A stretch of 64,000 nt of DNA from Diaphorobacter sp. HDW4B. GTDB taxonomy: Bacteria > Pseudomonadota > Gammaproteobacteria > Burkholderiales > Burkholderiaceae_C. A program made the translations under genes and the position numbers. Positions within the stretch are counted from its first letter, which is position 1. Each line of letters starts with the position of its first letter. Where the stretch lies: NCBI RefSeq assembly GCF_011305535.1, contig NZ_CP049905.1, positions 806,001 to 870,000 on the forward strand, written 5' to 3'. Below are positions 1,888 to 59,737 of the stretch, one piece after another. Under the pieces are notes generated by a model, which saw only the letters and a program-made list of their open reading frames with translations, ran no database searches and was not told the DNA's origin.

Positions 1888-3718
1888 GGAATGACTCCTC
1901 ACGGGAATAGTCAACAAAGGAAAGTGGATAGCGGCGCGACTGCGTCCGGTACTGCATCGAGTCTTTGTCAAACCAGAGCAACTGCGTGTAGTCTTGAAAA
2001 TCGCCATGGCGGTACTTGGAGAGAATCAGCTTTCCGTCCGCCTCCTCTTGCTTTGCGCGCCACCTGGCCATCGCATCGACATCACCCTCTGCAGGCATCG
2101 CTTCGTCCTTCTTGTTGCGCCAGACGGCAAACACGTTGTCGGCGGCGTTGACGATGTCCAGACTCCCCGCGATATCCATCTTGCTCGGCGCTCGCGACTC
2201 ATCGCGGTCCTTGCGCGGATGGGCAACCATGTGGACATGCACGCCGTAACCTCGGGCAAATGCGCAAATCTTCTGGACAGCCTGCTTCTGCGCAGACAAC
2301 GCTCCTTGCCCGTCCACAGGCACGTCAAGCATCATCAAACTGTCGATGACGAAATGCGTGATCCCGTACCGCCGCGCTGCGTAGGCGAACACTTCAAGCA
2401 ATCGCCCCAACTTCGCATTGCCCACGATGTCAAAGACCCATAGGCGTTCACGCAGCCATTCGCCAATGGCGCGGCTGTATTGAGGCGCCGGACGGTCGAG
2501 CCCTGACGCTTGTTTGTGAATCCGCTTCAAGTGGCGCGCAGCAGTGAGCTCACCCGAGAACACCACAACACGCTGATCCTGTTTCATCAGCCCGAGTAGG
2601 ACTTGATCAAGCAGCAGACTCTTGCCGTGACCGTTCCAACCTGTCCATGCGGTGTATTCGCCCGGATGAAACTCGAACCAGTCCAATGGCTTGTCGAGAT
2701 AGAGGCAAGGATGGCGCGGCTTGTCAGCACTCGGCCAAAACTCCGCAATGACAGCTTCGGTATGGTCGTCAGCACTGACGAGTTCCTCCGGGTCCATCGC
2801 CTTGGCTTCATCCACCGCCACGCGGAAATCGTAGGCCTCAGCGCCGTACTGAAGGTACTCGTTCGGGTCCTTCTTCGGCAGCATTACCCGGCGGCAACGC
2901 TCCAGCCCCAGACGACGCATGACCTCAGGCGCACCCTTGTCGCCAGCCTCATCGTGGTCAAAGCAGATCGTGATGTCGCTGAATCGCTCCAACCTATCCC
3001 AATCCGTTTCGATCCACTGGTGATTGCCTGCTCCTTGGTTGATCGACAACGCAGGAATGCCCATCTGATGCAGCGTCATTGCATCGATCTCGCCTTCACA
3101 GATCGTCACAGCGCGCGCCTTCGGATCGATCAGGTGCCAGCCGAAGAGGCAAGGTGCGGCATCCTTTTCCTGCCGCATATCGCCCTTCTTGTCAGGATTC
3201 CGATACTTCACATTCAGCAGCTTCTGCCCTGTCTCATCCAGGTACGGAAACACTGCATACGTATTGCCGTTCAGGACCTGCTCACCGACTTTGAATGCCT
3301 TGAGCGTTTCTTCGGTAAGACAACGTCCATCCGGCGCAGCGCTTGTGAGCCACTGGTGCACCCGCCCCTTGGGCGTTGAGCAGCGCGGCCTCTCGGGCAA
3401 GCGATATTTCTTCTCCGGAGGCTTTGGCGTGATCTCGCGTATCCCGAGATAGTCTTTCGCCTCACGCATCGCTTCCGTCAGCGTCAAGCAGCGGCAGGCC
3501 ATCCAAAGATCGATGAGGTCACCACCAGCACCCGTTGCGAAGTCACTCCACACGCCCGCTTTGGCACCACCGACACATACCGACAGACTGCCACCCTCTT
3601 CACCGCCAACGCTGCCTGCCGTCCATTCACGGCCCTTGCGCTTACCGTTCGGCAACAGGTGCTGGGCAACGTCTTCTGCACGCTGGGCCAGTCGATCCTT
3701 GACCTCGGAGACATTCAT
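1856..3718 (-). CDS. Phage primase-helicase (TOPRIM plus RecA-like helicase)
   Basis: The 620-residue product resembles T7 gp4/Twinkle-type replicative enzymes. A TOPRIM primase core lies at about 203-260, with the acidic residues of ICEGEIDAM and the ICFDHDEAG aspartates. A RecA/DnaB-type helicase domain follows from about 345, with Walker A GWNGHGKS (360-367), a Walker B-like HFVIDSLMM and a MVAHPRK motif. The N-terminus lacks an obvious CHC2 zinc finger. The protein would unwind DNA and prime the lagging strand at the phage fork. Its ATG overlaps the stop of the upstream replication gene by four bases (ATGA), so the two are probably co-translated. Confidence 0.85.
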   Translation of the reverse strand: MNVSEVKDRLAQRAEDVAQHLLPNGKRKGREWTAGSVGGEEGGSLSVCVGGAKAGVWSDFATGAGGDLIDLWMACRCLTLTEAMREAKDYLGIREITPKPPEKKYRLPERPRCSTPKGRVHQWLTSAAPDGRCLTEETLKAFKVGEQVLNGNTYAVFPYLDETGQKLLNVKYRNPDKKGDMRQEKDAAPCLFGWHLIDPKARAVTICEGEIDAMTLHQMGIPALSINQGAGNHQWIETDWDRLERFSDITICFDHDEAGDKGAPEVMRRLGLERCRRVMLPKKDPNEYLQYGAEAYDFRVAVDEAKAMDPEELVSADDHTEAVIAEFWPSADKPRHPCLYLDKPLDWFEFHPGEYTAWTGWNGHGKSLLLDQVLLGLMKQDQRVVVFSGELTAARHLKRIHKQASGLDRPAPQYSRAIGEWLRERLWVFDIVGNAKLGRLLEVFAYAARRYGITHFVIDSLMMLDVPVDGQGALSAQKQAVQKICAFARGYGVHVHMVAHPRKDRDESRAPSKMDIAGSLDIVNAADNVFAVWRNKKDEAMPAEGDVDAMARWRAKQEEADGKLILSKYRHGDFQDYTQLLWFDKDSMQYRTQSRRYPLSFVDYSREESFHEKLETAFAR

Positions 3719-4641
3719 GCGGCAGCCCCTTCAGGCTGAGCCACGCGCTTGCGATCCCGGAATTCCGTGTAGTTCATCCAGTTGCACTGCGAACCCTCGG
3801 CGTCCCACTTCGACTCAAAGCCCGCGAGCTTCCACCATTCGGGCGGCAATGCTGCTGCCTTCACCATCAACGGGTCGCTTGGCGAGAGCGCTGCCGAACC
3901 TGCCACGCCGATGGCGGGTTCGTCCTTCCAGCAACCTTTGCTGAGCCAAGTCGCCGGATACGGGATGAACTGACCGCCATCCTTGCGCCATTGCTCGGAT
4001 CGCGCTTGTATACCGATTGCAGCGACCATCTCGGACACAAGCTCTGGCGTTGGGTTTCGCTTCGCAAATGCCTTGCGAGCATCGTCCTTGGCGACCTTCC
4101 GTGGATACGCCGTCCAGAATTCCGCAAACCCATCAGGATCGACTTCGGACTTGCCGCGTCGCCCCCCCTTTGGGGGTTGGGGGGTTTCTTCTTTATTCTT
4201 CTCTTTCTCTTTCTCTTTCTCTAGCTCCACAGACCGGCGGATTTCGTCCTCATCTTGTCCGCCATTTGTCCCACAATTGTCCGTATCGGGTGCGGACATC
4301 TTGCGCGTGTAGCCCTTGCGTTGAGCGTCTGTTGCACGACGCTTTGCGGACGCGCCGTTATGTTCTGTGAAGTTCAGTAGACAAACTCCGTCAGAAGTTT
4401 CCGCAAGCCATCCAATTCCGCACAGTGCTTTACCCAGCCCTTGTACGCCGGTTTTGCGGTCGATCTGACGCAACGTGAGGCCCGGCATGAATCCATCTTC
4501 AGTGTGTTGGTCTGCCGTCGCCCACAGCCAGTAGAGAGCGCCGACCACGGCGGCCTCACTGGTGTCGGTCATCTCCACCAAAGCGGCAACACGCGGGTCG
4601 TCCCACAGATTGCCGCGCATCTTGATCCAGTCGCCTGCCAT
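3715..4641 (-). CDS. Phage replication protein, O-like initiator or helicase loader
   Basis: The product has 308 residues. The N-terminal 110 residues resemble winged-helix phage replication proteins (MAGDWIKMRGNLWDDPRV). A Lys/Glu linker, KEKEKEKNKEE, follows near residue 145. The C-terminal part has FAEFWTAYPRKVAKDDARKAF and PYPATWLSKGCWKDEP, patterns common in phage proteins encoded beside DnaB-type helicases. It probably recognises the origin or recruits the adjacent primase-helicase. A GGAGG site lies 10 bases before the ATG. The linker is encoded by a hexanucleotide repeat (about 4195-4222) beside a C/G-run hairpin (4161-4186), a possible origin feature. Confidence 0.7.
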   Translation of the reverse strand: MAGDWIKMRGNLWDDPRVAALVEMTDTSEAAVVGALYWLWATADQHTEDGFMPGLTLRQIDRKTGVQGLGKALCGIGWLAETSDGVCLLNFTEHNGASAKRRATDAQRKGYTRKMSAPDTDNCGTNGGQDEDEIRRSVELEKEKEKEKNKEETPQPPKGGRRGKSEVDPDGFAEFWTAYPRKVAKDDARKAFAKRNPTPELVSEMVAAIGIQARSEQWRKDGGQFIPYPATWLSKGCWKDEPAIGVAGSAALSPSDPLMVKAAALPPEWWKLAGFESKWDAEGSQCNWMNYTEFRDRKRVAQPEGAAA

Positions 4642-4646
4642 GAGGT

Positions 4647-4994
4647 TCAGCCCTCCTGAATTTCACCGCGAGCAACTGCCGCGTCGTAGTCACGCTCGGC
4701 ATGCTCACACTTCAAGTTGAATGCGCGCTCGTCCTCTTCGGCATCTGGCAACGCCTGCTCCAATGCGTAAATCAACTTGCGCACATTGGCGCAGGGAACA
4801 ATAAGGAACTGAAGCTGCTTGTCGGCAAAGTCTTGGCTCATCACGACGACACTGCCCTCATCGCCGCCAACATAGACGGCGAGCTTGTCGTACTCGTGAT
4901 CTACGACCATGAGACCTTCGGCGCGCATCTCGTCCCAAGACGGTCCAGCGATCTCTGTGGTCTCGCTGTCAATGGGTTGATTGTTTTCAGTCAT
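4647..4994 (-). CDS. Hypothetical acidic phage protein
   Basis: The 115-residue protein is rich in Asp and Glu and has no membrane segments or known motif. The ATG at 4994 has the ribosome-binding site AAAGGTGAG directly upstream. A GTG two codons earlier is inside that site and is less likely. The gene sits between the small upstream proteins and the replication gene, in the same direction. The C-terminal third (CEHAERDYDAAVARGE) is predicted helical. No function can be assigned. Confidence 0.6.
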   Translation of the reverse strand: MTENNQPIDSETTEIAGPSWDEMRAEGLMVVDHEYDKLAVYVGGDEGSVVVMSQDFADKQLQFLIVPCANVRKLIYALEQALPDAEEDERAFNLKCEHAERDYDAAVARGEIQEG

Positions 4995-5090
4995 GCTCAC
5001 CTTTCATGCACCACTTGTGAAATAGGCGCCAACGGCCGGCAGGTGGTGTTTCTGCGTTGCGGGAGCTACCCTGGCCGTCGGCAAAACTGT

Positions 5091-5228
5091 TCAGCCCGCA
5101 GGCTGGGTCTCGTCGTATTCCTCGCGCCACTTCGCCTGCTCCAACTGCTCACGCAACGATGCGGCAATGCGCTCTGCTTCTTCCAGCTCTTGCTGGAGTT
5201 GTGCGGCGGTTTTCTCGGGCGCTGTCAC
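5091..5228 (-). CDS. Small coiled-coil phage protein (45 aa)
   Basis: A short frame begins at GTG 5228, overlapping the stop of the upstream gene as GTGA. It encodes 45 residues, mostly one amphipathic helix rich in Gln, Glu and Leu (AAQLQQELEEAER, then LREQLEQAKW). The coupling, the lack of rare codons and the coherent heptad spacing support a real gene. Function is unknown. The next 90 bases to 5001 hold no clear gene. Confidence 0.5.
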   Translation of the reverse strand: MTAPEKTAAQLQQELEEAERIAASLREQLEQAKWREEYDETQPAG

Positions 5229-51717: not shown

Positions 51718-54435
51718 ATGCGGTCCTTCAACTTTTTCACCCAAAAACCTGTTTCGCTGGCCGTGGCTTCGGCCCTGGTGATCTTGCTGACCGGCTGCTC
51801 TTCCAGCGGCTCGTTGCGCAGCGACGCAGGAGGCACTTCCGGCGGCGGCACTGGCGCCGGCATCACCGATGGCGCCGGCACCGGTAGCGGAACAGGCGGC
51901 GAGAACAGCGGAAACATGAACACCGGCGACGGAAGCGGCACTGGTGCAGGCTCCGGCACTGGTACAGCCAACAATGGTTCCGGCACTGGTACGGGCTCCG
52001 GTACGGGCTCCGGTACGGGTACTGCTGGAAACGGTACTGGAACGGGCTCAGGGTCAGGAACAGGCTCTGCCGGCTCCGGATCCAACGGCGGCAGCGGCTC
52101 AGGTTCCGGCGGAACGATTGTCGCTGGTGGCGGTGGCGGTAACACTGGTGGCGGCAACACAGGCGGTGGCAACACAGGCGGTGGCAACACAGGCGGTGGC
52201 AACACAGGCGGTGGCAACACTGGCGGTGGCAACACTGGCGGCGGAAACACTGGCGGTGGCAACACTGGCGGCGGAAACACTGGCGGTGGCAACACTGGCG
52301 GTGGCAACACTGGCGGCGGAAACACTGGCGGTGGCAACACTGGCGGCGGCACCGTGGCTGGCGGCCCTCTCCAAGTCATTCGCGATGTCAGCACCGGCGC
52401 TGCGGGCGTAGTGTCCGGTGCAGCAGGTGCCGTCGGCGACGTGGGCTCCACGGTCACCAACGTGCTCAATGGCGCCCTGGGCAACACAGCGCTTGGTGGC
52501 GTGTCTGCGCCTGCGGGTGGTGTGGTCAAGGAAGTCGGTGAAGCCGTCGGTTCGCTGGCGACAGGTGTGGCCAGCGGTCTGGGCCAGATCGGAACCAGCA
52601 CGGACCCTATCGGCACGACACTGAGCAGCCTCAACCCTACCGTCGGTCATGTAGGACATGCAGTGTCATCCGTGGGTGACACCGTGAGCGCTCTGGACAC
52701 ACCGCAGCTTGGTGTCGTAGGTGATGTGGCAGGTCTGGCTGGCGGCGTTGTCGATCAGGTGGGCACTACGGTGACGAGCCTGGGCTCCACGGTCGGCTCC
52801 GTCGTGGACAGCACTGGCGTGCGCAATCTGACGACCACGGTCGCAGGCACTGTCACTCCGCTGCTCGGCAATACCATCGGCGCCGTTCAGAACCTTGGCA
52901 ATGCCACAGGTCTGGGCGAACCCGTGACCAACATCCTGACCATGGTGGGCGGTCTGGTGACCACCACCGGCAACGGCCTTGCCGGGACGCAGACCCCGAT
53001 CATCACGCCTGCCGGCAATCTGGTGGCAGCAACGGGTGAAACGGTTTCTGCGCTGGGCGGCGCGACCTCGACCAACAACACAGCCAACAGCGGCCTGCTG
53101 GGTGGCTTGCTCGGCAACACACTCGGCACCGTCACCAATGTGGTCAGCGGGGCAACGGGTGGTTCGACAGGCACTGGTGCGGCAACGGGCGCATTGGGCG
53201 GTGTGGTCGGAACCGTCACCAACGTGGTGGGCGGCGTGGCCGGCGGCACAGGCTCCACGACGGGTACGGCCACAGGGGCGGTCGGCGGCGTGGTGGGCGG
53301 TGTCGTGAACACCGTGGCCGGTGTGGTGGGCGGCGTCACAGGGGGAACAGGTTCCACCACCGGCACAGCAACCGGAGCGGTCGGTGGCGTGGTAGGCGGT
53401 GTGGTGAACACGGTCACCAGCGTGGTCGGCGGCGTGACCGGCGGCACAGGTTCCACTACAGGTACGGCCACTGGCGCTGTGGGCGGCGTGGTTGGCGGTG
53501 TCGTGAACACCGTGGCCGGTGTGGTCGGCGGCGTCACTGGCGGAACAGGTTCCACCACCGGTACAGCCACAGGGGCAGTCGGTGGCGTGGTGGGCGGTGT
53601 GGTGAACACGGTCACCAGCGTGGTTGGCGGCGTGACTGGCGGCACAGGCTCCACGACGGGTACAGCCACAGGCGCGGTGGGCGGTGTGGTTGGCGGTGTC
53701 GTGAACACCGTGGCCGGTGTAGTCGGCGGCGTCACTGGCGCGGTCACTGGCGGAACGGGTTCCACCACTGGCACAGCAACCGGCGCAGTCGGTGGCGTGG
53801 TCGGCGGTGTCGTGAACACCGTGGCCGGTGTGGTCGGCGGTGTCACTGGCGGCACAGGCTCCACAACCGGAACCACCACGGGTGCGCTCGGCGGTGTGGT
53901 CGGTGGCGTGGTGAACACGGTCACTGGTGTCGTGGGCGGCGTGACAGGTGCGACAACGGGCGGCACAGGCACGACAACCGGCACAACGACTGCTGGGGTC
54001 GGTAACGTGGTCGGTGGCGTCGTGAACACGGTGACCAGCGCGGTCGGCGGTGTGACGGGTGGCACCACCACGGGCACCACTACGGGCGCTGTGGGCGGAC
54101 TGGTAGGCGGTGTCGTGAACACGGTAACCGGCGTAGTGGGCGGTGTGGTGGGTGGTGTGACGGGCGCGGTCACCAACACGGTGGCCGGGACTACCGGCAC
54201 AACGACGGGAACCACCACAACCGGAACAACCACCACAGGTACGACAGGCACGACCACCGGCACCACCACCACGGCAGGCACGACCACCGCCGTCGGAGGT
54301 GTCGTGGGTGGCGTGCTCGGGGCAGTCACTGGCCTGCTGGGTGGAACCACCACAACCACTGCAACCAACACCACGACAACCACCACAACTGGCGGTGGCG
54401 GTCTGCTCGGTGGTTTGCTGGGAGGCAAGAAGTAA
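51718..54435 (+). CDS. Repeat-rich Gly/Thr/Val lipoprotein, putative exported partner
   Basis: The 905-residue product starts with a lipoprotein signal (residues 1-27, ALVILLTGC; lipid Cys27). A Gly/Ser/Thr region (28-140) leads to 14 tandem GGGNT units. Then come hydrophobic/Gly stretches and, from about 510, seven or so copies of a 33-residue unit (TATGAVGGVVGGVVNTVAG and following). The C-terminus has Thr runs and ends GGLLGGLLGGKK. There is no TPS secretion domain of the classical two-partner type. AGGAG lies before ATG 51718. The next gene is a ShlB/FhaC-type transporter, so it may be the partner. A collagen-like or adhesive surface role is inferred only. Confidence 0.75.
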   Translation: MRSFNFFTQKPVSLAVASALVILLTGCSSSGSLRSDAGGTSGGGTGAGITDGAGTGSGTGGENSGNMNTGDGSGTGAGSGTGTANNGSGTGTGSGTGSGTGTAGNGTGTGSGSGTGSAGSGSNGGSGSGSGGTIVAGGGGGNTGGGNTGGGNTGGGNTGGGNTGGGNTGGGNTGGGNTGGGNTGGGNTGGGNTGGGNTGGGNTGGGNTGGGTVAGGPLQVIRDVSTGAAGVVSGAAGAVGDVGSTVTNVLNGALGNTALGGVSAPAGGVVKEVGEAVGSLATGVASGLGQIGTSTDPIGTTLSSLNPTVGHVGHAVSSVGDTVSALDTPQLGVVGDVAGLAGGVVDQVGTTVTSLGSTVGSVVDSTGVRNLTTTVAGTVTPLLGNTIGAVQNLGNATGLGEPVTNILTMVGGLVTTTGNGLAGTQTPIITPAGNLVAATGETVSALGGATSTNNTANSGLLGGLLGNTLGTVTNVVSGATGGSTGTGAATGALGGVVGTVTNVVGGVAGGTGSTTGTATGAVGGVVGGVVNTVAGVVGGVTGGTGSTTGTATGAVGGVVGGVVNTVTSVVGGVTGGTGSTTGTATGAVGGVVGGVVNTVAGVVGGVTGGTGSTTGTATGAVGGVVGGVVNTVTSVVGGVTGGTGSTTGTATGAVGGVVGGVVNTVAGVVGGVTGAVTGGTGSTTGTATGAVGGVVGGVVNTVAGVVGGVTGGTGSTTGTTTGALGGVVGGVVNTVTGVVGGVTGATTGGTGTTTGTTTAGVGNVVGGVVNTVTSAVGGVTGGTTTGTTTGAVGGLVGGVVNTVTGVVGGVVGGVTGAVTNTVAGTTGTTTGTTTTGTTTTGTTGTTTGTTTTAGTTTAVGGVVGGVLGAVTGLLGGTTTTTATNTTTTTTTGGGGLLGGLLGGKK
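52141..52350 (+). repeat. 14 tandem 15-bp units encoding GGGNT
   Basis: Fourteen copies of a 15-base unit (GGCGGTGGCAACACN) repeat with few third-base changes. Slippage could change copy number while keeping frame. Confidence 0.9.
53244..53940 (+). repeat. About seven 99-bp tandem units in the lipoprotein gene
   Basis: Units of 99 bases encode TGTATGAVGGVVGGVVNTV plus AGVVGGVTGGTGST or TSVVGGVTGGTGST. The A-G and T-S versions alternate in the first units, which points to a 198-base duplication step. One unit carries an extra GAVTGG. Confidence 0.85.
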
Positions 54436-54484
54436 GCAGCAAGCAACATCAGGGTTTGCTCTCTCTCCAATTCTCAGCAAGCAG

Positions 54485-54531
54485 CACAACAGTAACAACG
54501 TGTTTCTTACGAAACCGCTGTTGCTGTTGTG
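54485..54531 (+). promoter_or_regulatory. Hairpin between lipoprotein and transporter genes
   Basis: CACAACAG (54485-54492) pairs with CTGTTGTG (54524-54531). An inner GTTTC/GAAAC pair continues the stem. T-rich sequence follows weakly, so it may attenuate or stabilise the mRNA. Confidence 0.5.
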
Positions 54532-54595
54532 TGTTTCGAGAGGCGCCTAGCGACATGCGGGGACCGCGCCATTACTCACGACAAGAAGGTCGATC

Positions 54596-56290
54596 ATGAT
54601 TTACCCCGCCACTTTCTCTCTCAGACTGCCCGCACTGGCAGTCTTTTTGTGCTTTTCGCCCCTGCTCAGCCACGCGCAATCCGCGACTGCTGGCGGCAAT
54701 CCATTGAACACACTGCCTTCGGTGCCCGCGCCCCAGCCGCAGGCGCAGGTGCCCCTGCAGGTCGCGCCGCCGCAAAGTCAGGTCGAGCAGGTGCTGGCCG
54801 CCAAGGTGCAGGTCACGCGCGTCGATGTGCAAGGCGTGTCGGCCATTCCGTTCGAGGAGGTCAGCGCCTTGCTCGCCCCGTTGTCCGGCGGCACGCACAC
54901 GGTGGCAGACCTGATGGCCGCCGCGCAGAAGGTGACTGCGCTGTACCAGCAACGCGGCTACGCGTTGTCCTTCGCGTTTGTTCCGGCGCAGGATTTCGCG
55001 GGCGGCGTCGTGCGCTTCAATGTGGTCGAGGGCTATCTGCAGCGGGTCGAGCTGGAAGGTGATTTCGGCAAGTCCGAAGCGCTGGTGCGCGAGATCGCCG
55101 AGCCGCTGCTCAAGGAGCGTCCGCTCACCGCCGCCACCTTCCAGAAGCAGACGCAGTTGATGACGCGCCTGCCCGGCATCGAGATCGCCGCCATCGCCAA
55201 TCTGCCCACCACGACCGATGGCGCGACGCCGCTGGTCCTCAAGGCCAAGCACAAGCCGATCATCGTCTCGGTCGGCGGCGAGTTGCGCAAGCCCACCTCG
55301 CGCTTCATGGCGAATGTGCTGGTCAACGATCCGTTCTGGCAAGGCAGCCAGTTCCAGTTCTCGACCTTGCTGCGCAATCCGAGCGACGAGCGTTTTCTGT
55401 CTGCCGGTTTCACGCAGATGCTCAACGCCGCAGGCACCATGGCGCGCGTGAGTTTTTCGGACTACCGCAGCCACAACGATCCGCTGTCCAAGCTGCCGGG
55501 CATCGACGACACCACCACCCAGCGCAAGCTCGACCTGAGCGTGACGCATCCGTGGATCGTCGCAGGCAACGAGCAGCTCAGCACCACCGCCGGTTTCTAC
55601 GGACTGAACTACCGCAAGGAATACTGGGTGCCTGCCAACCAGATCAGCATCCACGACGAGGAACGCGTGCGTGCTCTGTACGCACAGGTCGCCTGGTCCA
55701 AGTCCGCCGCTACGGTGGGCCGTTCGGCCAACGTGACTTTGACGCAAGGCGTCGATGGTCTGGGCGCAGGTTTCGATCGCGGCAACAACGTCGGTCAACC
55801 GATGGCGGAGAACCCGGCGAAGCTCAACTTCACGCGCTTGAGCGGCGACTATTCCGAGCGCCATCGCTTTGCCAGCAAGCTGGGCGCGGCCTTCGGTGTC
55901 GGCGGTCAGTATTCGGGCGACATCCTGCCCACGCCCGAGCGCGTGTCGTTCGGCAGCTCGCGCTATGGCCGAGGCTATGCGCCGGGCGAGTTCTCGGGCG
56001 ACAAGGGCATCGGTGCAAACGTCGAGCTGAACTACCTGTTCGGCATGGACAGCAAGTGGCTCAAGAGCGTCGAGCCCTATGTGCTGTACGAACACGCCAA
56101 GCTCTGGCAGAACACGGCAGGCACCGTCGCCACGACGATAAAGTCCGCCAGCCTTGGTGCGCGCTTTGCCGACAACAAGCACTACTCGCTCGATCTGTCG
56201 GTCTCCAAGCCGCTGGGCGCGCGCACGGCCAACAACCCCGAGCGTTCGCTGCGCTACGGTCTGATCCTGAGCTACAACCTCGATCTGTAG
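54596..56290 (+). CDS. ShlB/FhaC/HecB-family outer-membrane transporter (TpsB)
   Basis: The 564-residue protein has a signal peptide (about 1-28, ending SHAQ), a Pro/Gln linker and a POTRA-type domain (KVQVTRVDVQGVSAIPFEEVSALL, GGVVRFNVVEGYLQRVEL). The C-terminal barrel (from about 240) has the FGSSRYGRGYAPGEFSGDKG motif and ends in a barrel-like strand, SYNLDL. Such proteins carry TpsA partners across the outer membrane. Here the gene follows the repeat lipoprotein gene by 160 bases and no classical TpsA gene is in the window. The start site overlaps a GGTCGATCAT repeat. Confidence 0.86.
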   Translation: MIYPATFSLRLPALAVFLCFSPLLSHAQSATAGGNPLNTLPSVPAPQPQAQVPLQVAPPQSQVEQVLAAKVQVTRVDVQGVSAIPFEEVSALLAPLSGGTHTVADLMAAAQKVTALYQQRGYALSFAFVPAQDFAGGVVRFNVVEGYLQRVELEGDFGKSEALVREIAEPLLKERPLTAATFQKQTQLMTRLPGIEIAAIANLPTTTDGATPLVLKAKHKPIIVSVGGELRKPTSRFMANVLVNDPFWQGSQFQFSTLLRNPSDERFLSAGFTQMLNAAGTMARVSFSDYRSHNDPLSKLPGIDDTTTQRKLDLSVTHPWIVAGNEQLSTTAGFYGLNYRKEYWVPANQISIHDEERVRALYAQVAWSKSAATVGRSANVTLTQGVDGLGAGFDRGNNVGQPMAENPAKLNFTRLSGDYSERHRFASKLGAAFGVGGQYSGDILPTPERVSFGSSRYGRGYAPGEFSGDKGIGANVELNYLFGMDSKWLKSVEPYVLYEHAKLWQNTAGTVATTIKSASLGARFADNKHYSLDLSVSKPLGARTANNPERSLRYGLILSYNLDL

Positions 56291-57419: not shown

Positions 57420-57541
57420 TTCAGGCAAAAATCAGAGCAAGAAGATTCCACACGGCGCGCATCAGCCCTTTTGTTTCAATGAGTTGCAACACTATCAATA
57501 GAACGTATGATAATGTTGTTTAAACACAATTGACTCAGGCT

Positions 57542-59737
57542 ATGCCTCCGCAACCCGACTCCTTCACGAAAGCTCTCGAGGATTGCATTCAGGAAAGCGT
57601 CAAGACCAGTTCGACACTGCTGACGCAGGTTCTCGTCATCGGACGCCGGTCCATGGTGGAGGCGCGCCTGAACGCCTCCTCGCCCAACCAGATGCTGGCC
57701 TTGCACAACGCCACGCACATGCTGGTGAAGTACGAGAACGAGCTGATCGCCACCTACCCCGCTGAACTCCAGAAGCAGTTCGACGCGATTCGGGCTGACA
57801 CGGCAGGCACCATCGTGCGCCGGACAGAAGTCCCTTTCAACAAGCTCACCATCCTGCAGGACCACGAATTCAGCGCGCAGATGGCGCTCTCGCAACTGCG
57901 CCACAACGTCATCACCGCGACCGAAGTCGATTGCGCCTTGCTGAACTCCTACACCAGCGCCGCACGAGGTCTCATGCGCGTGCGGCCCGATAGCAACCCC
58001 TTCCAGCCGGAGAGCTACATCCTCGCCCTGCAGCAGGTTTTCGAGACCGCTGGCGTCGATTTCCAGGCCCGGCAGATGTGGTTCCAGCACATGGGCACCG
58101 CGCTGGGCAACGAGCTGGTGCTGCTCTACAAGGCCTTGATCAGCCGGCTCACCGCACAAGGCGTCGAGCCCATCAACTATTCCCTAACCCGCCCCAAGGA
58201 ATACACGGTGCCGGATGCGGCCATCGAAGAGGCCGCGTATCTGATCGTGCCCACGGCAGCGCCCTTGGCCACCCCCGTGCACACCTATGCACCGGCGGTG
58301 TTCTCCGGCTTCTCGGTGCTGCACTCGTTCAAGGAAAGCGACTTCGCCTTCCCCTCGCTGCCTTCGAGCAATCCGTCGGAGCCGACGCTGTCCTTTCCTT
58401 CGTTGGAAACCGATCCGGATCCCGCAGCACCTGCCGACGCCGCCTCGCCTTTTGCACTGACCAAGGAGGTCAGCTCCGGCGGCATGAACTCGCTGATCCA
58501 AAGCGCGGAATTCGTCACGGGTTTGACGAACGCGCTGCCCACTTCCGATGAAGATCTGGCGGCGATGAGAGCGCGGCCGGAGTTCGAATTTCTCCCGCCG
58601 AAGTCTGCAGAACAGGAGTCGGAAAAAAAAGAAGCGGCCGCAGCAGTCAAGCCAGAAGAGACCACGGCTGCCAGCACCTCCGCAGCCGATCAACCCGTCT
58701 CCAGCACCACGGCAATACAGCAACTGCTCGAACAGATCCTTCGCGAACAAGCGCTGCCCGAAGCCTTCAGCCCTATCGTGCGCAGCTTTGAACCGGCGCT
58801 GGTTCGTCTGGCGCGACGCGACGACAGCTTTCTGACCGATGAAAAGCACGCGGCCCGCAGACTGCTCAGCGCCGTCGTGCAGACAGGACTGAACGCCCGC
58901 AGCGAAAGCACCCGCCAGTTCGACCGATTCATCGCACTCGCCGACGACACGGCGCGCAATCTGGTGGCCCTTCCCGTGCGAGACGCAACCGCGTTCGAAC
59001 ACATGGTGCTGACCTGGGATCGCGCGTGGAACAAGGCCGCCGCGGGCCTGATCGCGCGCTCTGCCGCAGGCCATGCGGATGCATTCCAGGCCTTGGTGCG
59101 GGCGCATTCTCTTGCGTTTGCAGCGCTTCCGACAGCGCAACAGGCACCCGACCATTGGCGTGATTTTCTGACCGGCCCATGGGCGCGCGTCACCGCCCAC
59201 ATGCAATGCGCGAGCGACAGCCAACGCGCCAACAAATATCTGACCATCGCGCCCGTGCTGCTCTGGTGCGTGCAGCCCAAGATCGATGTCGACGACGCAC
59301 TCCGCCTGCGCCCATGGATCGAGAGCATTCGCCGCCACGTTCACCATGGCCTTGCAAGCATCGGCTACTCGACCGCCGAGATCGCGCCGTTGCTGCAGCG
59401 TGTGGACCGTCTCCAGATCGCGCTGGACAGCGGCACCGCACCCGACAGTGCGCCACCCGCTGCGAATGACGAAACGAACCACGCAAAGCCGACGGAGCCA
59501 TCCCATGTCGACTCGTTCGTTCAAACGCTGGCATCGGGCCAGTGGTTCGACATGTGGATCAAACAGCGCTGCATCCGCACGCAGCTCACCTGGGTCAACG
59601 AGGGACGTACATCGTTCATGTTCGTCGCCGCAGATCGCACCTCGCAGTCACTGACTCGCCGCATGCTCGAAGGCCTGGTCGGCAAAGGCGGCCTGCGACG
59701 CGTGGATGGCCCTGGCGCGGAACGCGGCGCGTCCTAA
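57542..59737 (+). CDS. DUF1631 family protein
   Basis: The 731-residue protein matches the DUF1631 pattern: an N-terminal helical region (SSTLLTQVLVIGRRSMVEARLN), a low-complexity Ala/Ser/Pro middle (about 285-400) and a C-terminal domain ending QLTWVNEGRTSFMFVAADRTSQSL. It is soluble. These proteins occur in Beta- and Gammaproteobacteria and their role is not established. The start may be ATG 57542 or a TTG four codons earlier. It converges with cobT. Confidence 0.8.
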   Translation: MPPQPDSFTKALEDCIQESVKTSSTLLTQVLVIGRRSMVEARLNASSPNQMLALHNATHMLVKYENELIATYPAELQKQFDAIRADTAGTIVRRTEVPFNKLTILQDHEFSAQMALSQLRHNVITATEVDCALLNSYTSAARGLMRVRPDSNPFQPESYILALQQVFETAGVDFQARQMWFQHMGTALGNELVLLYKALISRLTAQGVEPINYSLTRPKEYTVPDAAIEEAAYLIVPTAAPLATPVHTYAPAVFSGFSVLHSFKESDFAFPSLPSSNPSEPTLSFPSLETDPDPAAPADAASPFALTKEVSSGGMNSLIQSAEFVTGLTNALPTSDEDLAAMRARPEFEFLPPKSAEQESEKKEAAAAVKPEETTAASTSAADQPVSSTTAIQQLLEQILREQALPEAFSPIVRSFEPALVRLARRDDSFLTDEKHAARRLLSAVVQTGLNARSESTRQFDRFIALADDTARNLVALPVRDATAFEHMVLTWDRAWNKAAAGLIARSAAGHADAFQALVRAHSLAFAALPTAQQAPDHWRDFLTGPWARVTAHMQCASDSQRANKYLTIAPVLLWCVQPKIDVDDALRLRPWIESIRRHVHHGLASIGYSTAEIAPLLQRVDRLQIALDSGTAPDSAPPAANDETNHAKPTEPSHVDSFVQTLASGQWFDMWIKQRCIRTQLTWVNEGRTSFMFVAADRTSQSLTRRMLEGLVGKGGLRRVDGPGAERGAS

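Follow-up and report, generated by a model that had tools for sequence, protein, structure and literature searches.

A Gly-rich Collagen_mid lipoprotein encoded beside a TpsB-type transporter: a conserved gene pair and putative type Vb variant

Diaphorobacter sp. HDW4B carries, in the 64,000-nucleotide stretch analyzed here (contig NZ_CP049905.1, positions 806,001 to 870,000 of the forward strand; hereafter the window), a gene for a Gly/Thr/Val-rich repeat lipoprotein (open reading frame, ORF, 51718–54435, + strand, 905 residues) that is followed after 160 bp by a gene for a TpsB-type outer-membrane transporter (54596–56290, + strand, 564 residues). The two genes form a real and conserved module: they are paired and co-occur across genomes, no cargo with a two-partner secretion (TPS) domain was found, the transporter is a canonical TpsB by its domains and predicted fold, and the lipoprotein, its proposed client, is not a TpsA. 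It is likely, with a probability of roughly 0.74, that the lipoprotein and the transporter make up a dedicated form of type Vb secretion that is independent of a TPS domain, in which the TpsB would export helical lipoproteins as its clients. Conservation of the two genes across many relatives suggests that a known export pathway also serves an unexpected cargo. A preliminary description of the window had drawn attention to the pair, and its account of a 905-residue repeat lipoprotein with an LTGC lipobox, directly upstream of a TpsB gene on the same strand, was borne out by the ORFs, the lipobox and the repeats in the DNA.

Pairing at TpsB loci and across genomes

Public genome contigs were scanned for relatives of the window TpsB, which yielded 207 sequences, and the best 80 loci were kept for neighbor counts (loci and genomes are designated below by our labels, L and G). 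A model of the conserved domain of the lipoprotein (Collagen_mid, PF15984) was built from 12 mid-domains and used to search the neighboring genes. A Collagen_mid gene was found upstream of the TpsB gene, on the same strand, at 76 of the 80 loci; the remaining four (L052, L057, L078 and L103) lie no more than 250 bp from the upstream end of their contig. As a control, 110 Gly-rich ORFs were shuffled, and none matched the model. Measured to the earliest TpsB start, the two genes are separated by up to 575 bp (median 152.5 bp), and at 9 of the 76 loci by 10 bp or less, seven of these being 4-base overlaps.

Co-occurrence was followed in three genome draws. Among 200 genomes of the family, 17 had a TpsB match at E ≤ 1e-20. 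The eight with the closest TpsBs (G000, which is the window's genome, G147, G068, G071, G099, G132, G105 and G003; E ≤ 5.7e-68, the next being 4.7e-38) all had a Gly-rich lipoprotein gene upstream of the TpsB gene, and PF15984 exceeded its cut-off in exactly these eight genomes, which represent seven genera. The probability of the same 8 of 200 genomes coinciding at random is ≈2e-14, and kinship makes the true value larger. (PF15984 matches below the cut-off were dropped: G016 and G032 in the family draw, G256, G629, G725, and a second one in G000.) In the order draw (399 genomes), PF15984 was over the cut-off in 10 genomes, all within the 14 that had a TpsB at E ≤ 1e-40, and in the class draw (350 genomes) it was over the cut-off in two (G000 and G746), both among the three with a TpsB at E ≤ 1e-35. 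Summed over the draws, all 18 distinct PF15984-positive genomes had one or more copies next to a TpsB, with the lipoprotein gene first in 16 of them and the TpsB gene first in two (G402 and G431).

A classical cargo was sought with two models. The TPS domain (PF05860) had no match in the window's own genome, which contained one POTRA_2 match (the TpsB itself) and one Collagen_mid gene over the cut-off. Because earlier control genomes had given no matches, the PF05860 search was repeated on 11 genomes and was positive in eight; the negative ones, G000, G147 and G003, all bear the pair. A TpsA model made from four TpsA N-termini was searched against the flanking sequences fetched (up to 7 kb), where it matched all 11 loci of distant TpsBs (seven of them outside the model building), none of the 80 best loci, and none of L021–L027 or L137–L158. 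Since the model was positive at every classical locus and negative at all 80 loci here, a TpsA is not among the neighbors of these TpsBs in the fetched stretches. The preliminary description had set conserved synteny without a separate TpsA as a test beforehand, and this is the arrangement that was found. Homologous TpsBs beside a classical TpsA, which it had named as telling against the pair, were seen for distant TpsBs only, at 22–30% identity to the window TpsB.

Some genomes contain additional Collagen_mid genes. Nine such genes lie away from a TpsB gene in the drawn genomes (one each in G071, G206 and G355, and three each in G449 and G478), and G478 has five in total, two of which are then followed by a TpsB gene (L145). 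At 14 Cupriavidus/Ralstonia loci (L058, L064, L068, L070, L072, L080, L081, L087, L107, L112, L115, L118, L122 and L125), an extra Collagen_mid gene is present on the opposite strand ≈2.1–2.5 kb upstream of the TpsB gene. In G003 (L027, 8203–9636 and 9919–11356), the TpsB is split into three pieces in different frames and the end of the upstream lipoprotein departs from the family tail, which may reflect either a joint decay of the two genes or an assembly error. Neither the TpsB nor a Collagen_mid gene was matched in G018, from the same genus as the window, so that gains and losses may affect the two genes together.

Features of the transporter and the lipoprotein

The transporter had been described as a member of the ShlB/FhaC family with POTRA and barrel motifs, and this assignment held: it scored above the Pfam cut-offs for POTRA_2 (69.9 bits, cut-off 24) and ShlB (31.7 bits, cut-off 22.7), and a profile of 35 TpsB relatives matched CdiB, TpsB4 and FhaC among the PDB sequences. 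The predicted structure (mean pLDDT 82.5) has two POTRA domains, the first of which corresponds to the POTRA_2 match (54809–55033, + strand), and 16 barrel strands in the DSSP list, counting 392–397 and 413–424 as one strand. Its best fold matches were CdiB (6wim and 6wil) and FhaC (4ql0/4qky), with TM-scores of 0.51–0.64. A GRGY sequence (55967–55978, + strand), between predicted barrel strands 11 and 12, occupies the place of what we take to be the VRGY motif of FhaC loop L6. FhaC carries an N-terminal plug helix, H1; the N-terminal region of the TpsB model contains only a helix at 36–39, in a stretch of low pLDDT, and a plug helix of the FhaC type is not visible there. Identity as BamA or TamA was considered and rejected, the best sequence and fold matches being CdiB, TpsB4 and FhaC instead. 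By its POTRA domains, 16 predicted strands and modeled FhaC/CdiB fold, the transporter is a canonical TpsB.

Of the 60 TpsBs placed in a tree, 50 belong to the group (a linked lipoprotein was seen for 49, and L052 is on a cut contig) and 10 do not. A weakly supported branch (81/39) separates the 50 from the rest, and a long branch (1.2) with 100/100 support separates the 50 plus G363; the tree program warned of long branches. Behind the signal peptide, the window TpsB has the motif GNPLNTLP (54695–54718, + strand), which is typical of the group: a GNPLDTLP-like motif was found at this place in 43 of the 50 group TpsBs versus 0 of the 10 others, and the seven misses consist of six close variants and one over-long start. 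A terminal Phe was present in only 4 of the 50, versus 10 of 10 among the other TpsBs.

The lipoprotein starts with a predicted signal peptide (51718–51798, + strand) that ends in the lipobox LTGC (residues 24–27) and is followed, past the Cys, by a Ser. Next are a low-complexity array of 14 NTGGG repeats (15-bp unit; 52141–52351, + strand), the Collagen_mid domain of ≈190 residues (52498–53064, + strand), and a C-terminal part of Val/Gly/Thr repeats in 33-residue units (53074–54432, + strand), which includes 99/198-bp arrays inside 53197–53948 and closes with the hydrophobic and basic tail GLLGGLLGGKK (54400–54432, + strand). The protein had been described as almost entirely Gly, Thr, Val and Asn. 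These four do make up 74.8% of it (Gly 31.9%, Thr 21.8%, Val 15.5%, Asn 5.6%), but Ala (7.8%) and Ser (6.1%) are both more frequent than Asn, and the description overlooked the conserved PF15984 domain. Plain hmmscan of the lipoprotein against Pfam and NCBIfam gave no match; the domain was recovered by a six-frame search of the genome with PF15984 (134.2 bits, cut-off 31.1), and the orthologue at L046 scored 127.5 bits.

The nearest relative is Diaphorobacter caeni (L046), with a TpsB identity of 92%. Against this relative, dN/dS was 0.088 for the TpsB (564 codons) and 0.075 for the mid-domain (197 codons), indicating that both are protein-coding and constrained at the protein level. Two long ORFs run antisense across the lipoprotein gene (52666–54498, – strand, 610 codons, and 52887–54470, – strand, 527 codons); given the constraint on both genes, they are probably by-products of the codon composition of the lipoprotein. 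Further along the window, 57530–59737 encodes a DUF1631 protein (148.7 bits).

Hydrophobic periodicity in the homologues peaked at 100°, as in an α-helix, both in 70 mid-domains (z = 100) and in 69 C-terminal parts (z = 45). Neither set had a peak at the 170–180° expected for β-strands, the mid-domains showing a small rise at 160° (z = 10), and neither had the 120° periodicity of collagen, except slightly in the C-terminal parts. The low-confidence model of the mid-domain is likewise all-α, and it had no match in a fold search against the PDB at E ≤ 0.001. (A weak match of the mid-domain profile to viral VP4 in the PDB, at E = 0.006, was set aside as probably compositional.) The lipoprotein thus differs from TpsA in having no TPS domain and a helical rather than β periodicity, in agreement with the earlier view of a client with neither a TPS domain nor a β-helix. 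A collagen triple helix was rejected for the window protein, in which the longest GXY run is 4, versus a mean of 5.6 after shuffling; the periodicity is also contrary to it. At L139 (G387), the lipoprotein two genes upstream of the TpsB (3412–5127) has true collagen GXY repeats (PF01391, 46.4 bits), and GXX runs reach a length of 24 in some Luteibacter copies.

The lipobox pattern was present in 71 of the 76 TpsB-adjacent homologues, the five misses including cut or mis-started frames, and the residue after the Cys in those 71 was Gly, Ala, Ser or, once, His. In E. coli, the residue after the lipoprotein Cys sets the choice between inner and outer membrane, and Asp leads to retention in the inner membrane. 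By these sequence rules the close-group lipoproteins would be lipidated and sorted to the outer membrane. At the other end of the protein, a Lys, Arg or His was found within the last three residues of all 76 adjacent copies and 38 of the 39 further copies at the 80 loci, the exception (L122) being a contig end, while these residues make up ≈2% of the remaining sequence. A tail pattern of GG and aliphatic residues, as in GGLLGGKK, occurred in 68 of the 76, and linked copies outside the 80 loci had the basic end in 16 of 19 cases.

Proposed mechanism and rival explanations

In the mechanism that we propose, the lipoprotein would cross the inner membrane, be lipidated at its Cys and reach the outer membrane, as the lipobox and the residue after the Cys suggest. 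Through the TpsB barrel, the mid-domain and repeats would then be brought out onto the cell surface, with the lipid end remaining as an anchor. The result would be a long and flexible helical stalk, rich in Gly and displayed for adhesion between cells or to surfaces. Recognition would probably depend on the mid-domain, the C-terminal tail or both, replacing the TPS domain, and unlinked paralogues of the same genome would probably use the same TpsB in trans. The earlier suggestion that the TpsB moves an unconventional client is thus the best reading of the synteny, although transport itself is something that we infer. We hold a broader version more tentatively, at somewhat less than even odds: that these barrels constitute a new branch of type V secretion for α-helical Gly-rich lipoproteins, with no TPS domain or β-helix, in which Collagen_mid and/or the hydrophobic-basic C-terminal tail is the signal and unlinked paralogues are served in trans. 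Its odds are lowered by the three distant linked copies in which the basic tail is missing.

Several observations weigh against a dedicated lipoprotein exporter. The 80 loci are the most similar ones and many come from related species (Paraburkholderia, Cupriavidus, Luteibacter), L049 and L050 even from the same strain, so that the 76 cases are not independent; in addition, the genome searches scored few candidates per genome, which makes absence from any single genome weak evidence. Four of the 14 order-level TpsB genomes (G224, G270, G387 and G363) had no Collagen_mid match. In the first three, divergent lipoproteins rich in Gly, Val and Pro lie upstream of the TpsB, beyond the reach of the PF15984 model and with a small ORF intervening in G387, while G363 (TpsB identity 27%) has no lipoprotein gene by its TpsB. 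G607 (25%) has no such gene downstream, its upstream side being cut ≈280 bp out, and in G318 a small ORF separates the lipoprotein from the TpsB. In the divergent lipoproteins of G224 and G270 the Cys is followed by Asp, a residue that under the E. coli rule would retain them in the inner membrane. The copies at L139 (G387), L143 (G318) and L161 (G746) lack the basic C-terminus, and the tail therefore marks the close group and not all members. The mid-domain model is weak (pLDDT 67.5). Finally, the relative BCAL1524 is present in outer-membrane vesicles (PMC10303873), but localization to vesicles does not prove surface exposure.

The pair also often lies close to genes for a Tad/Flp pilus, and the main rival explanation is that the TpsB and the lipoproteins are accessories of this pilus, aiding its anchoring, display or biogenesis, in which case the lipoprotein would not be TpsB cargo. 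Of 104 loci examined, 61 (for example L094, L143 and L145) had Tad-type genes in their fetched flanks, identified with leader peptidase, TadE, secretin and RcpC as seeds; this set contains at least five places twice and does not include the window itself. RcpC was found in 15 of the 22 genomes searched. All 15 are among the 20 genomes that have the pair or a divergent form of it, and the two without the pair (G018 and G363) gave no match. This association with the pilus counts against a dedicated exporter. In Burkholderia, the genes bcal1520–1524 also adjoin the flp pilus operon, and both clusters include genes that are responsive to quorum sensing or to membrane contact (PMC2753556, PMC7970998). 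On the other hand, the RcpC search gave no match in five pair-bearing genomes, G000 (the window's own), G147, G003, G071 and G099, and the Tad seeds had no match in the fetched flanks of the Luteibacter loci and of L046. The pair thus accompanies the pilus cluster in many lineages and persists without a detectable one, and we consider the accessory role unlikely as an explanation of the pair.

Still less probable in our estimate is that the lipoprotein is surface-bound by another route or periplasmic, and acts as partner, plug or chaperone of a TpsB that moves a third protein. Candidates for such a protein are small Gly/Val-rich ORFs beside the TpsB, with a signal peptide and no evident lipobox, at L143 (5672–6508, +), L139 (5362–6099, +) and L161 (3442–4419, –), which might equally be secreted extra clients; the nine Collagen_mid genes away from a TpsB and the Asp residues in G224 and G270 also fit this explanation. 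However, it is the lipoprotein that is the constant neighbor, at 76 of the 76 loci with upstream sequence, no third gene was noted at the window, and the unlinked copies occur only in drawn genomes that also have the pair. As to an accidental pairing, which the preliminary description had allowed for, it was rejected as very unlikely, given the 76 paired loci among 80 and the co-occurrence in the family and order draws. Even when widened to a neutral neighborhood inherited by descent, for which the kinship of many loci could be cited, the idea is highly improbable: presence and absence of the two genes match over the 200 family genomes (eight positives in seven genera), the gene order is flipped in one family, and the pair is retained in G746, a distant class member, despite a TpsB identity of just 27–28%.

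If the dedicated lipoprotein exporter is the correct explanation, a TpsB barrel can work without a TPS domain or β-helix folding, and an entire lipoprotein family of the Burkholderiales, whose members are putative adhesins, would have a route for surface display. Genes of the bcal1522 type would then probably encode transporters of the adjacent lipoproteins, and not proteins of heme utilization.

Comparison with known systems

In two-partner secretion, the cargo usually folds into a β-helix at the cell surface. Like the type Vb systems FhaB/FhaC and CdiB, the window system is a two-gene unit whose TpsB has POTRA domains, 16 predicted strands and matches to CdiB and FhaC. It differs in its client, which has a lipobox and neither a TPS domain nor β periodicity, and in its transporters, which in this group have a GNPLDTLP-like N-terminal motif and mostly no terminal Phe. 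The client gene also mostly comes first, whereas the TpsB gene normally precedes TpsA (review, PMC10778856). Two-partner secretion is usually explained through the TPS domain (PMC10778856, PMC12940168).

The lipoprotein family itself has already been described, as Burkholderia lipoproteins with a Collagen_mid domain and disordered repeats (PMC10224339), and deletion of BCAL1524 lowers autoaggregation (PMC10303873); what is new is the link to TpsB. The proposal of a new export system therefore stands for this link, which was not found in the open-license PMC literature searched for a connection between two-partner secretion and Collagen_mid lipoproteins, but not for the lipoproteins. The text of PMC10224339 contains none of the terms two-partner, ShlB, POTRA and hemolysin. 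The Burkholderia proteins BCAL1523 and BCAL1524 (Bcc-CLPs) resemble the window protein in having PF15984, a lipoprotein signal and low-complexity flanks. Their genes form a possible operon, bcal1524-bcal1523-bcal1522-bcal1520, in which the downstream bcal1522 is TpsB-sized (1686 bp) and has a predicted outer-membrane product, a likeness by description rather than by sequence comparison; unlike the window TpsB, it is labeled "heme utilization-related" (PMC10224339).

Bacterial GXY collagen-like proteins share with the window protein the Gly-rich repeats and a proposed role in adhesion, but the GXY runs of the window protein are not above chance. The Slam proteins of Neisseria are outer-membrane barrels that serve surface lipoproteins, and this much they have in common with the window system; to our knowledge, Slam is not a TpsB/Omp85 protein, whereas the barrel of the window system is a TpsB.

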